Positions 36,074 through 42,098 of a DNA stretch of 64,000 nucleotides are shown piece by piece. The translations under genes and the position numbers were made by a program. Below the pieces are notes generated by a model that saw only the letters and a list, made by a program, of their open reading frames with translations, made no database searches and was not told where the DNA came from. Where the stretch lies: positions 1 through 64,000 of the forward strand of contig CACIKE010000003.1 in the NCBI GenBank assembly GCA_902587155.1, in the 5' to 3' direction. The DNA is from an uncultured Pelagibacteraceae bacterium. Its GTDB lineage: Bacteria > Pseudomonadota > Alphaproteobacteria > Pelagibacterales > Pelagibacteraceae. Positions within the stretch are counted from its first letter, which is position 1. Every line of letters begins with the position of its first letter.

Positions 36074-37222
36074 CTAGTTCTTTTTAGTAGGAGTAGTCTC
36101 TTTTGTAGCCTCTTCTTTTTCAGCTACTTTTTTCTCCTTTTCAATTTTTTCAGGACTTAATGGATTTCCTTCAATTTTCTTTGAAATCACACCAGCTTTT
36201 TCTCTAATTGCCATTTCTATTTCTGCAGCAACTTTAGGGTTTTGTGCAAGATAAGTTTTTGCATTTTCTCTACCTTGTCCAATTTTCTCACCTTTATAAG
36301 CATACCAAGCTCCTGATTTTTCAATGATATCAGCTTTAGCACCTAGGTCGACTAACTCACCCATTTTGCTAATACCTCTTCCATACATCAAATCAAACTC
36401 GACAACTTTAAATGGTGGTGCAACTTTGTTTTTAACTACTTTAACTCTTGTAGTATTTCCAATAATTTCATCTTTGTCTTTGATAGCACCAATTCTTCTA
36501 ATGTCCATTCTTACAGATGAATAAAACTTAAGTGCGTTACCACCTGATGTTGTTTCTGGACTTCCAAACATAACACCAATTTTCATTCTGATTTGATTAA
36601 TGAAAATCATCATTGTGTTTGTATTTGAAATTGAACCAGTTAATTTTCTTAAAGCCTGACTCATTAATCTTGACTGAAGACCAACGTGATGATCTCCCAT
36701 TTCACCTTCAATTTCAGCTTTTGGAGTTAAAGCTGCAACTGAGTCAATTACGATAACTGAAATAGAGCCTGATTTTACTAATGTATCTGCTATTTCTAAA
36801 GCTTGTTCACCAGCATCTGGTTGCGAAATTAAAAGCTCCTCAGTATTTACACCTAATTTTTTTGCGTAAACTGGATCTAAAGCATGCTCTGCATCAACGA
36901 ATGCACAAATTCCACCTGCTTTTTGAGCTTCAGCAACAACTTGTAATGCTAATGTAGTTTTTCCAGAAGACTCTGGCCCGTAAACTTCAATAATTCTTCC
37001 TTTAGGTAAACCGCCTATTCCTAAAGCTAAATCTAAACTTAAAGAACCTGTTGATATCGACTCGATATCCATTGCTCTTTTTTCACCAAGCTTCATCACA
37101 GAACCTTTTCCAAAATTATCTGTGATTTGGCTGATTGCTGCGTCTAAAGCTTTATTTTTCTCTTTATTATCCAATTCTTGATCTTTAGTAGATTTAACTA
37201 CTTTTAAGTTATTTTTAGTCAT
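36074..37222 (-). CDS. recA: Recombinase A
   Basis: [87 protein letters not shown]. Confidence 0.99.
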
Positions 37223-37270
37223 TTTTTGCCTCTTTTTTTAATATTTTTGTCACTCGAATCATGCTTATAA

Positions 37271-37287
37271 ATGTACACATTTTGTTC
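37271..37287. promoter_or_regulatory. Candidate SOS-like operator upstream of recA
   Basis: ATGTACACATTTTGTTC contains GTAC-N7-GTTC, one mismatch from GTTC-N7-GTTC; 12/14 match with the umuD upstream site. Confidence 0.45.
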
Positions 37288-37329
37288 TCATTGGCAAGAT
37301 TTATTTATTTAAGCCTAAAAAAACTAATT

Positions 37330-38625
37330 TTATCTCAATTTAAGATATTCACTATTAAGCAATCCAATAGACTTTAAAAGATTAAACTGCGAAAGAATAT
37401 AGTTTCTCTCTGAATCTGCCAACGAAATTTGAGCATTCAATAATAAAGAGTTAGACTGAATAACCTCTAAAGTAGTTCTATCTGATCCACTATTATATTC
37501 AGCTACAATTCCCTCATTTGCGATTTCTGCAGCGTTCACCTGAGCTTTTACTGAATTAAGTAAACTTTTGTTTGATTGATAATTTGACCAGGCACTCGCA
37601 ACATCTGTTTGATTTTTTTTAATCATATTATTTAAAAGAAGATTTTTTTGTGTCTCCAAACTTTTATTTTTATTCAAATTTGCATAATTCTTTCCACCTG
37701 AAAAAAATGGCCACGTGACCGTTGCTTTTAAGGTATCTTGTTCTTTTTCGTCATAGGTAGAACTGAGATCATCTGTTTTTGATCTATCAAAAGATAAGGT
37801 TGCTGTTGGAGCTAAATCAGATCTTGCACTAGTTGTATCTTTTTTTGATTGTTCATATTCAAGTTGAGCTATAATTAAATCTGGATTGCCTTTTTTTGAT
37901 ATCTCTATTGCAGAATTTAATTCATTGGGTAGATTAACTATTACTATAGATGATTTATCTAGTGCCTCTGCATCATTAATAGTGCCAATCACATTTTCAT
38001 AATTTAGCTTACTGGTTAAAAAATCGTTTTCAGCTTGGATTAACTTTGCTTGTGCTCCAGCTAAAGAGGACTCTGATTGAGCAACATCTGATAAAGATAT
38101 ATTACCTCGCTCAAGCCTAATTCTATCTGTTTCGACCTGTCGATCTAACAGGTTAACATTGGATTTATTAATCTTAAGTTTTTCGTTTGCTGAAATTAAC
38201 CCCGTATAAGCTTCAATTGATTTATATAGAATTTCTTGCTCTTTTTTTAAAAGCTTTGCTTTAGCTAATTCAATGCCAATTTTACTTTTACTTAATTCAG
38301 CACCTCTTCCAAAATCTATTAATGTTTGGGTAATTGTCAATGATTGCACAGTTGGGTCTACATCTGAAATCGTTGCATCTGTTCCGTTCTGATTGGTTAA
38401 TTTATTGGTGTCCTCTGAGCTTTTACTTCCACTTAAAGTTACAGAAGGAAGGTATGAGCTCATCGAAATTTTAAGCTCTTGTTCAGAAATGTTTAGGCTT
38501 TCTCTTTCAGCATTTAATTCATTGTTATCATTATAAGCTTTTTTTAACGCTGCAGAAAAAGTTTCAGCATTTGCATTATTTAACAAAAATATTAAACTTG
38601 TAATTATAAATAAAATCCTAATCAT
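37330..38625 (-). CDS. tolC: TolC-family outer membrane efflux protein
   Basis: Signal peptide; paired OEP repeats (TITQTLIDFGRGAELSKSKIGIELAKA, TVTWPFFSGGKNYANLNKNKSLETQK). Confidence 0.9.
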   Translation of the reverse strand: MIRILFIITSLIFLLNNANAETFSAALKKAYNDNNELNAERESLNISEQELKISMSSYLPSVTLSGSKSSEDTNKLTNQNGTDATISDVDPTVQSLTITQTLIDFGRGAELSKSKIGIELAKAKLLKKEQEILYKSIEAYTGLISANEKLKINKSNVNLLDRQVETDRIRLERGNISLSDVAQSESSLAGAQAKLIQAENDFLTSKLNYENVIGTINDAEALDKSSIVIVNLPNELNSAIEISKKGNPDLIIAQLEYEQSKKDTTSARSDLAPTATLSFDRSKTDDLSSTYDEKEQDTLKATVTWPFFSGGKNYANLNKNKSLETQKNLLLNNMIKKNQTDVASAWSNYQSNKSLLNSVKAQVNAAEIANEGIVAEYNSGSDRTTLEVIQSNSLLLNAQISLADSERNYILSQFNLLKSIGLLNSEYLKLR

Positions 38626-39545
38626 TTCTTTTTATATACAGCAGATTTAATTTGATGGTTACTATTTAAATTGAATATAACAGATGCATATTTCGGCATA
38701 TTTCTAAACATGTTTTGAGTAATTCTTTGATAAGTTTGCATAAAATTTAATACATCTCCTCTACTCATTATTTTTGATTTCACTTTGCTTTGAACCCAAA
38801 GTTTTCTCTCTTGTTTTAATCTCCATTTTTGTAACAAGCTAAAATTTTTTGCTTTTAGATAAACCAAACAATTTAATTGTGAATATAAGTTTTTATATTT
38901 TGATTTTAATTGGTTGTTAACATATTTTCTCCAAATCTGTTTTTGATCTTTTGCTTTCTCCAATGAATTAATTGTTTTCTTTAATGTATTATTTTTTTCT
39001 GATTTTGCTCCAACACACCATCCTTCAAAAATGATAACATCTGGTCTCTTTTTTAAATCGTACCATTTCTTTTTATTATACCTGTCATCGATAGCTTTAT
39101 TAAATGTTGGTAATTTTAATCTGTTGAATTTCTTACTTTTTGACTTTTTAAAAAAATTTAACATCATATTAATGTCATGTGTTCCGGGCACGCCTCTAGT
39201 TAAAAGCATAGGATGAACTCTTTTTGATAAATTTATTCGCTCTTTTCTTGTTTTATAGAAGTCATCTATTGAAATTCTAAAAACATTTAATTTAAAGTAT
39301 TTTGTTAATATAATTCTGATTAAAGAACTAATTGTGGTTTTGCCAGTTCCTTGTCCTCCTGCTAATCCTACAAAATACGGTTTTTTTTTATCAGCTTTTT
39401 CACTGATCCAAAAACATAGAGGAATTAAGAAAGATTTAATCATCCTTTCTTTATTTTTGAATTTATCAGCTTTTGTCTCTTGAGATTTAATGAACTTTAA
39501 ACAGTCTTTTTTTACCCTACCAAAGCATAAACTAAATTGTTGCAT
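38622..39545 (-). CDS. P-loop kinase, D-glycerate 3-kinase-like
   Basis: FVGLAGGQGTGKTTISSLIR, RISIDDFYKTRKER, HPMLLTRGVPGTHD, DVIIFEGWCVGAK. Confidence 0.78.
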   Translation of the reverse strand: MQQFSLCFGRVKKDCLKFIKSQETKADKFKNKERMIKSFLIPLCFWISEKADKKKPYFVGLAGGQGTGKTTISSLIRIILTKYFKLNVFRISIDDFYKTRKERINLSKRVHPMLLTRGVPGTHDINMMLNFFKKSKSKKFNRLKLPTFNKAIDDRYNKKKWYDLKKRPDVIIFEGWCVGAKSEKNNTLKKTINSLEKAKDQKQIWRKYVNNQLKSKYKNLYSQLNCLVYLKAKNFSLLQKWRLKQERKLWVQSKVKSKIMSRGDVLNFMQTYQRITQNMFRNMPKYASVIFNLNSNHQIKSAVYKKK

Positions 39546-39550
39546 GAAAA

Positions 39551-39925
39551 TTATTTTTTATCTAAAGGATGATTTTGACCATCGTTTACTGGAACATCTT
39601 TGATATCAAAAGTATTTATTTCATCAATACACCCAACATTAAATCCTGTCATCGCTGGATTTATTCTTGGGTTGTGATGGGTATAAATTCCACAATCTGA
39701 GCAAAAGTAATGTTTGGCAACTTTTGAATGAAATTGATAAAGTTTTAATTTTTCTTCACCTTTAACAATTTTAAAATCTTCATTTTTTACCATAGACATA
39801 ATTGCTCCTTTTCTTTTACAAATAGAACAATTGCATTTTATTACTTTGGCTAAGTCTCCCTCTAAATTTATTTCAGCTTCTATAGCACCACAATGACATG
39901 ATAGTTTTTTCACTATTCTCCCCAT
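39551..39925 (-). CDS. GFA-family (Mss4-like zinc) protein
   Basis: LSCHCGAIEAE, CNCSICKRKGAI, YFCSDCGIYTHHNPR. Confidence 0.87.
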   Translation of the reverse strand: MGRIVKKLSCHCGAIEAEINLEGDLAKVIKCNCSICKRKGAIMSMVKNEDFKIVKGEEKLKLYQFHSKVAKHYFCSDCGIYTHHNPRINPAMTGFNVGCIDEINTFDIKDVPVNDGQNHPLDKK

Positions 39926-40263
39926 TTTCCATGAAACTCATAAACTACTGCAGGTTTATCACCTACTACCCAACCATCATGACCTGGTTCTATTGAATAT
40001 GCATCACCAGCCTTATAAGTTAATTCAGTTCCATCATCATGTTTTGCGCAAACTGCTCCTGAAACAATTACACCTAGATGTTTTGCTTTACAGCTATCTG
40101 TGCCAACTGTTGGCTTAATGTCTTGTGACCATTTCCAACCTGGTTGTAAAACTAATCTCATAACTCTTTGATCTCCTACTTTCACAATATCTATTTTAGC
40201 ATTTTTAAAATTCGTGTTACTTTCGTCTGGATTGTCAAAAGTTTTGACTTCAATTGAACTCAT
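39913..40263 (-). CDS. Cupin-domain protein
   Basis: LQPGWKWSQDIKPTVGTDSCKAKHLGVIVSGAV...GDAYSIEPGHDGWVVGDKPAV. Confidence 0.75.
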   Translation of the reverse strand: MSSIEVKTFDNPDESNTNFKNAKIDIVKVGDQRVMRLVLQPGWKWSQDIKPTVGTDSCKAKHLGVIVSGAVCAKHDDGTELTYKAGDAYSIEPGHDGWVVGDKPAVVYEFHGKWGE

Positions 40264-40348
40264 TATTTTTCTCCTTTTATAATTAAATTAGAATTTAAAA
40301 CTATCCTTGGTTGGAGTTATCCACAAGCATACAAAATATAGTTTTGAT

Positions 40349-40377
40349 GTTCACGTTTTGATTCACTTTTGATTCAA
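40349..40377. promoter_or_regulatory. Candidate SOS-like operator with tandem TTTTGATTCA repeats upstream of umuD
   Basis: GTTCACGTTTTGATTCACTTTTGATTCAA: half-site GTTC plus repeats spaced by 11–12 nt; overlaps a possible -35 (TTGATT 40369–40374) with a TACAAC -10 at 17 nt. Confidence 0.45.
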
Positions 40378-40417
40378 TTACGGACTCAAAATACAACCTC
40401 TTGCGTGCATTGTATAA

Positions 40418-40843
40418 ATGGGCTATAAATTAGAACAAAACAAGAACATGAAACTAACTATTCCCTATTATCTACATAAAGCTGGTGCTGGTTTCCCATC
40501 ACCTGCCACTGATTATATCGAAGAAGATATCGATCTGAACATGCATTTAATCAAAAATGTTCCAGCTACTTTTATTATCAGAGTTCAAGGTAAATCCATG
40601 GTCGATGTTGGGATTAATGATGGAGACTTATTAGTTGTCGATAAAAGTTTAAAACCAAAAAATTTTTCAACAGTTATTGCAAATGTTCACGATGAACTTG
40701 TGGTTAAAACTTTAGTTCAAGAAAGAGATAAAAAATTTCTATCGTCAGGGTCTAAAGATTTTTCTAATAGAATTCTAATTAATGAAGAAGAAGATGTTTT
40801 TATTTGGGGGGTTGTGACTTATGTCATCCATTCTACGTACTAA
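40418..40843 (+). CDS. umuD: UmuD/LexA-like S24 peptidase, error-prone polymerase V accessory subunit
   Basis: AGAGFPSPATDYIEEDIDLN (cleavage-site context), RVQGKSMVDVGINDGDLLVVD (Ser), ELVVKTLV (Lys); start may be 40448. Confidence 0.92.
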   Translation: MGYKLEQNKNMKLTIPYYLHKAGAGFPSPATDYIEEDIDLNMHLIKNVPATFIIRVQGKSMVDVGINDGDLLVVDKSLKPKNFSTVIANVHDELVVKTLVQERDKKFLSSGSKDFSNRILINEEEDVFIWGVVTYVIHSTY

Positions 40844-42098
40844 AAAAATAGGCTTAGTTGATTGTAATTCTTTCTATGTTTCATGTGAAAGATTATTTAA
40901 TCCAAAAATAAGAAAAAAACCTGTGGTTGTTTTATCCAATAATGATGGTTGTATCATTTCTAGATCTAATGAAGCTAAAGCTTTAGGAATTAAAATGGGT
41001 GAGCCTTATTTTAAGGCAAAAGATATTATTGTAAAAAATAAAGTTGAAGTTTTTTCATCAAATTACTCTTTATATGGAGATTTATCTAGAAGAGTAATGA
41101 GAACTCTCAAAAGATTTAATACTGAAATAGAAGTGTATTCAATTGATGAAGCATTTATAGATTTATCTAATTTTCCAGACTTTGAAGTTGAAAAAGTTGG
41201 AAGAGAAATTAGAGAGACAGTTTTACAATGGACTGGGATTCCGACTAGCATTGGTATCGCTAAAACTAAAACTTTAAGTAAAGTTGCAAATCATATCGCA
41301 AAGAAAAAACAATCAGGAGTAACAAGTTTAATTGGCATTGAGAATTTAGATCCTATCTTAGAAAAAGTTGAAATTAATGATGTGTGGGGTGTTGGTAGGC
41401 AACTTACGAAGTTTTATCAAAAAAATGGAATTTATAATGCAAAACAACTTAAGAATAAATCTAATACATGGATCAAAAAATGTTCCAATGTTTTAAGTTC
41501 TAGAACTGCAATGGAACTTAGAGGAGTACCATGTATTGGTTTAGAGACAACACAAACAAAAAGGAAAAGCTGTGTAGTTTCAAGATCATTTGGAAAAAGA
41601 ATCGAAAAATTTCAAGAATTAAGAGAAGCGGTTGCAAATTATTGTTTAAATGCATCTGAAAAAATTAGATCAGAGTCTTTGGTTGCAAAAGCAATTACAG
41701 TTTTTGTCAGAACTAGTCCTTTTCAAAGAGACTATGGTTATTATTCAAATGCAAAGACAATTGATTTTCCAATTGCAACAAACAATAGTATTGAAACTGT
41801 TAAAACTGCAGTTTCGATTTTAGAGAGCATTTTCAAAAATGGATATCGATATCAGAAAGCAGGTGTTATGCTTACAGGACTACGTAACGACGATGGTAGA
41901 AAAAATTTATTTTCATCGGAAAAAGATGAAAAGATAAAAAGTTTAATGCGATCAATTGATAATACTAATTACAGATATGGCAGATCTACATTAAGTCTTG
42001 CAAGTGCTGGGGTTCATAAAAAATGGAACATGAGAAGACAATACTCTTCTAAAATAGATACAGCTGATTTTTATTGTCTACCGACAATTAGAGCTTAA
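40821..42098 (+). CDS. umuC: Y-family DNA polymerase V catalytic subunit
   Basis: GLVDCNSFYVSCERLFNPKIRKKPVVVLSNNDGCIISRSNEAKALGIKMG, YSIDEAFIDLS; overlaps umuD. Confidence 0.95.
   Translation: MSSILRTKKIGLVDCNSFYVSCERLFNPKIRKKPVVVLSNNDGCIISRSNEAKALGIKMGEPYFKAKDIIVKNKVEVFSSNYSLYGDLSRRVMRTLKRFNTEIEVYSIDEAFIDLSNFPDFEVEKVGREIRETVLQWTGIPTSIGIAKTKTLSKVANHIAKKKQSGVTSLIGIENLDPILEKVEINDVWGVGRQLTKFYQKNGIYNAKQLKNKSNTWIKKCSNVLSSRTAMELRGVPCIGLETTQTKRKSCVVSRSFGKRIEKFQELREAVANYCLNASEKIRSESLVAKAITVFVRTSPFQRDYGYYSNAKTIDFPIATNNSIETVKTAVSILESIFKNGYRYQKAGVMLTGLRNDDGRKNLFSSEKDEKIKSLMRSIDNTNYRYGRSTLSLASAGVHKKWNMRRQYSSKIDTADFYCLPTIRA

Follow-up and report, generated by a model that had tools for sequence, protein, structure and literature searches.

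The motif upstream of recA in this Pelagibacteraceae contig is very probably a LexA operator belonging to a small LexA/SOS regulon, in which the operator of umuDC lies at 40433-40447 and from which the similar element at 40347 is excluded. The window (the whole stretch of 64,000 nucleotides that was analysed) comes from an assembly of 985 kb in 24 contigs that is 78% complete, and its placement in the SAR11 family is indicated by gene content and by a match to RF01827. The distance between recA and umuDC is approximately 2-5 kb in the genus loci examined (36074-42098 in the window). The following features were assigned:

36074-37222, minus strand: recA (TIGR02012, 564.8 bits)
37256-37260, unstranded: conserved CcrM-type GANTC site shortly downstream of the recA -10, in 47/50 genus loci
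37270-37297, minus strand: putative sigma-70-like recA promoter, TTGCCA-N16-TACATT (a consensus match only)
37273-37287, minus strand: recA LexA operator GAACAAAATGTGTAC (GAAC-N7-GTAC), in 50/50 genus loci (a few genomes counted twice) and 21/21 loci of other genera
40309-40398, minus strand: RF01827 (SAR11_0636 sRNA), not a LexA operator (114.7 bits, E 2.7e-23)
40317-40325, plus strand: DnaA box TTATCCACA, a conserved part of the RF01827 element
40347-40364, plus strand: the "SOS box" of umuD in the preliminary description, made up of a GANTC site and a GTTC half-site within RF01827
40401-40429, plus strand: putative umuD promoter TTGCGT-N17-TATAAA, read from the sequence and not flagged by the consensus scan
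40433-40447, plus strand: umuDC LexA operator GAACAAAACAAGAAC (perfect GAAC-N7-GAAC), in 50/50 genus loci
40448-40843, plus strand: umuD, start corrected to the ATG at 40448 (NF007621, 142.5 bits with the ORF that starts at 40418)
40821-42098, plus strand: umuC (best match NF002955, 406.2 bits, under its cut-off of 431)

The recA operator occupies the spacer of the putative promoter, between the TTGCCA -35 and the TACATT -10, and overlaps the latter; in several other genera this promoter takes the form TTGATA-N16-TACATT. In the genus, each of the 50 recA loci has GAACAAAA-NNN-GTAC at -61 to -66, with the box much less variable than its flanks, and GAACAAAAT[GA]TGTAC was identified upstream of recA in all 21 loci from 12 other genera. 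The second half-site is GTAC, not GAAC, in every case, a one-base deviation that is fixed across the family. The T of this half-site would be held for promoter function, because the half-site overlaps the -10 hexamer, and GTAC is a form that recurs and is tolerated, since most lexA promoters have a GTAC half-site too. The GANTC site at 37256-37260 reads GATTC or GAGTC in other genera, its middle base being variable; the conservation of such a site downstream of the -10 suggests a CcrM/GcrA input at recA.

The umuDC operator consists of GAAC-AAAACAA-GAAC, its last base directly preceding the ATG of umuD at 40448. It shares 13/17 bases with the recA box, GAACAAAATAAGAAC is a common variant of its spacer among the genus loci, and a perfect box was found in 17/18 umuD-linked loci of other genera. 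The start at 40418 given by the longest ORF is probably wrong, as the ATG at 40448 is common to all 50 umuD homologues, many of which show stops or lose homology upstream of it. If umuD does begin at 40448, the putative promoter at 40401-40429 would give an almost leaderless transcript, the start of which the box would overlap. When all 127,972 positions of the window were ranked with a matrix built from the family operators, the recA site came 2nd and the umuDC box ranked 1-2, as it also did with matrices excluding the recA and umuD instances; with a matrix from the lexA and nrdA operators alone it was 1st. The recA box ranked 106th or 10th with the matrices excluding recA and umuD instances, the fall to 106th occurring when the matrix lacked GTAC half-sites.

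The preliminary description proposed that the strings at 37271-37287 and 40347-40364 are one retained but diverged SOS operator. Both strings are present where described, they agree at 12/14 positions over ATGTwCACrTTTTG, and their readings as GTAC-N7-GTTC (recA) and GTTC-N7-GATT (umuD) are literally correct. The resemblance is unusual, because only three 12/14 matches to the recA 14-mer occur on the plus strand of the 64 kb (including the site itself) and none on the minus strand; the 40347 element is also well conserved in its own right. That the two are the same operator is nevertheless most unlikely, given that the 40347 element lies within RF01827, that its half-sites do not fit GAAC-N7-GWAC and that a perfect box is located 85 bp away. 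An operator here comprises two GAAC/GWAC half-sites 11 bp apart and linked to umuD, an arrangement that 40347-40364 does not have, and this stretch ranked 41st with the family-operator matrix and 512th-581st with the matrices excluding recA and umuD instances. The RF01827 motif was identified in 154/197 family genomes. In genera g2 and g4 the element is retained but lies apart from umuD and has no LexA box; in the copies inspected it is found just past a stop codon, and several g4 genomes have two copies; one copy still lies within about 3 kb of recA, and no umuD was found beside this recA-proximal copy in either genus. A LexA box adjoins RF01827 only in loci that have umuDC alongside. On the strength of the g2 and g4 copies, the idea that RF01827 is an SOS-regulated sRNA under the same operator as umuD was rejected as a general rule. 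The proposal of an SOS operator before both recA and umuDC therefore stands, with the umuD element moved 85 bp downstream; comparison of relatives bore out the recA box, and found the 40347 element conserved but not tied to umuD. The word "diverged" was too strong, as the umuDC, lexA and nrdA boxes are exact and the recA box alone departs from the consensus, at a single base of its second half-site.

A search of the source assembly with the PF01726 profile gave no match to LexA, whereas the same profile identified lexA in 163/197 family genomes and in 74/77 of the high-quality ones, so that the check for a lexA gene suggested earlier fails in this assembly and succeeds in the family. The absence might mean that lexA was lost in this lineage and that another repressor uses the boxes, for example a UmuD-like protein as in Acinetobacter. 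This is very improbable: the assembly is incomplete, the boxes match the LexA consensus as well as the operator of lexA itself, and the 8-kb lexA neighbourhood of relative G003 has no real match in the source assembly either. A gap in the assembly best explains the missing gene, being the simplest account because the whole block is absent. The LexA of a relative is a full member of TIGR00498, and the relatives' proteins retain the AAG cleavage site, the GDSM serine and the LKR lysine, that is, the self-cleavage site and Ser-Lys dyad of an alphaproteobacterial LexA. Relatives thus possess both lexA and a box in its own promoter: an exact GAAC-N7-GAAC is located 37-39 bp before the MLT start in 49/49 readable lexA promoters, most of which carry a four-half-site array, GAAC-N7-GAAC-N6/7-GTAC-N7-GTTC, reaching the start codon. 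It could also be argued that the recA box is a promoter element only (spacer plus -10) and resembles a LexA site by chance, since it overlaps the predicted -10 and the pattern is not enriched genome-wide, GAAC-N7-GWAC having 19 matches in the source genome against 27 for a reversed-pattern control. A promoter spacer needs no such constancy as that of GAACAAAA, which does not vary within the genus and was found in each of the 12 other genera; this sequence is also seen ahead of umuD, as are the half-sites ahead of lexA, leaving chance resemblance hardly credible. The significance of the LexA sites rests on position and conservation, because the raw count does not exceed the reversed control.

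Of the 19 matches in the genome scan, no more than 3 are located at promoters, namely those of recA, umuD and the divergent nrdA/phosphohexomutase pair. The last is an exact LexA box between nrdA (ribonucleotide reductase alpha) and the phosphohexomutase gene (G000 contig C1:59923-59937), and it is exact in 30/30 genomes. Among the matches located in complete relatives, the intergenic exact boxes are those of umuD, lexA and nrdA only. GAAC-N7-GAAC also occurs in coding sequence, where an aspartyl-tRNA synthetase-like ORF begins, but this match was set aside because genome G017 lacks it at the corresponding place. The preliminary description had also pointed to other repair genes as possible targets; this was borne out for lexA and not for uvrA, which in 8 genomes had no perfect LexA box in the nearest 250 bp or so and was rejected as a further target. 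The uvrA gene is a common SOS gene rather than a strictly defining member of the regulon.

During infection by pelagiphage HTVC027P, recA, lexA, umuD and umuC are up-regulated, with nrdAB up-regulated separately (PMC12753301), and lexA, recA and mucA cluster together in late iron stress (PMC2864753). The target list derived from the boxes agrees with both the co-induction and the cluster. Excinuclease is also induced in HTVC027P infection (PMC12753301), for which the LexA box search gives no explanation. The identity and conservation of the operators are direct observations of the present analysis; LexA binding, repression and damage induction are predicted from the protein family and the published co-induction data. 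Without DNA damage, GAAC-N7-GWAC would be occupied by a LexA dimer, which would block RNA polymerase at four places: in the recA promoter between its -35 and -10, at the umuDC start, at the lexA promoter and at the divergent nrdA/phosphohexomutase promoter. Upon DNA damage, RecA filaments would promote self-cleavage of LexA at its Ala-Gly bond, allowing induction of this small set of genes.

The LexA box of Caulobacter is GTTC-N7-GTTC (PMC12700426). The same direct-repeat operator (GAAC-N7-GAAC on the other strand) was identified in promoters of umuD (50/50), lexA (49/49) and nrdA (30/30), and as GAAC-N7-GTAC in that of recA. The SAR11 system further resembles a Caulobacter-type LexA regulon in its core of lexA, recA and a translesion polymerase and in the intact protease features of LexA. 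It differs in that the regulon is apparently very small, with nrdA/phosphohexomutase added and uvrA without a box, in the second recA half-site fixed as GTAC on the -10, and in the longer four-half-site array of the lexA promoter. No published description of a SAR11 LexA operator was found, a statement that holds for the literature searched and not for all literature. Judged from its operators, the SOS regulon appears small, canonical and well kept, a member of an already known kind.

RF01827, whose strong match encloses the umuD motif of the preliminary description, is a candidate RNA of Meyer et al. 2009, who noted that its main stem lacks covariation (PMC2704228). Across genera, 71-74% of cells are paired in Rfam helices 1 and 5, base pairs with both partners changed number 7 against 4.9 in shuffles (56/500), and the covariation score was reached by 5/500 shuffles; the Rfam structure thus appears weakly supported. 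Whereas RF01827 was published as a candidate sRNA of weakly supported structure, three invariant, helically phased GANTC sites and a DnaA box were identified in it here. GAGTC, GANTC, GAATC and GAACA are invariant in 64 distinct copies at spacings of 12, 11 and 12, only the N of the second GANTC varying (A 57, G 4, T 3), and TGTGGATA (a DnaA box) follows the array in 57/64. GANTC is scarce in the window (97 observed against 179 expected). It has been described that GANTC is methylated in Pelagibacter and tied to its cell cycle (PMC9516812), and that ctrA is missing from Pelagibacter (PMC2877005).

From the phased GANTC sites and the DnaA box, the weak structural support and these published facts, it follows that RF01827 should be taken seriously as a DNA element near recA: an array of CcrM methylation sites on one face of the helix, GAGTC-N7-GANTC-N6-GAATC-N7-GAACA, followed by a DnaA box, with a role in replication or the cell cycle in bacteria without CtrA. 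This reading is tentative, plausible though short of probable, and the element may instead be a conserved unstructured RNA. A replication origin at RF01827 was rejected: skew sampling in three complete genomes places the origin elsewhere, roughly 0.18-0.22 Mb from RF01827 in two genomes of the same genus and poorly fixed in the third.

The LexA regulon is ordinary and well conserved, and RF01827 is the more unusual lead among these results. The conserved stretch neighbouring the umuDC operator belongs to something other than the SOS system, and its Rfam family is possibly mis-typed. For a bacterium that ranks among the most abundant in the ocean, the analysis provides a concrete operator and a minimal set of putative SOS targets (lexA, recA, umuDC and nrdA/phosphohexomutase), a list that fits published transcriptomes from phage-infected cells.
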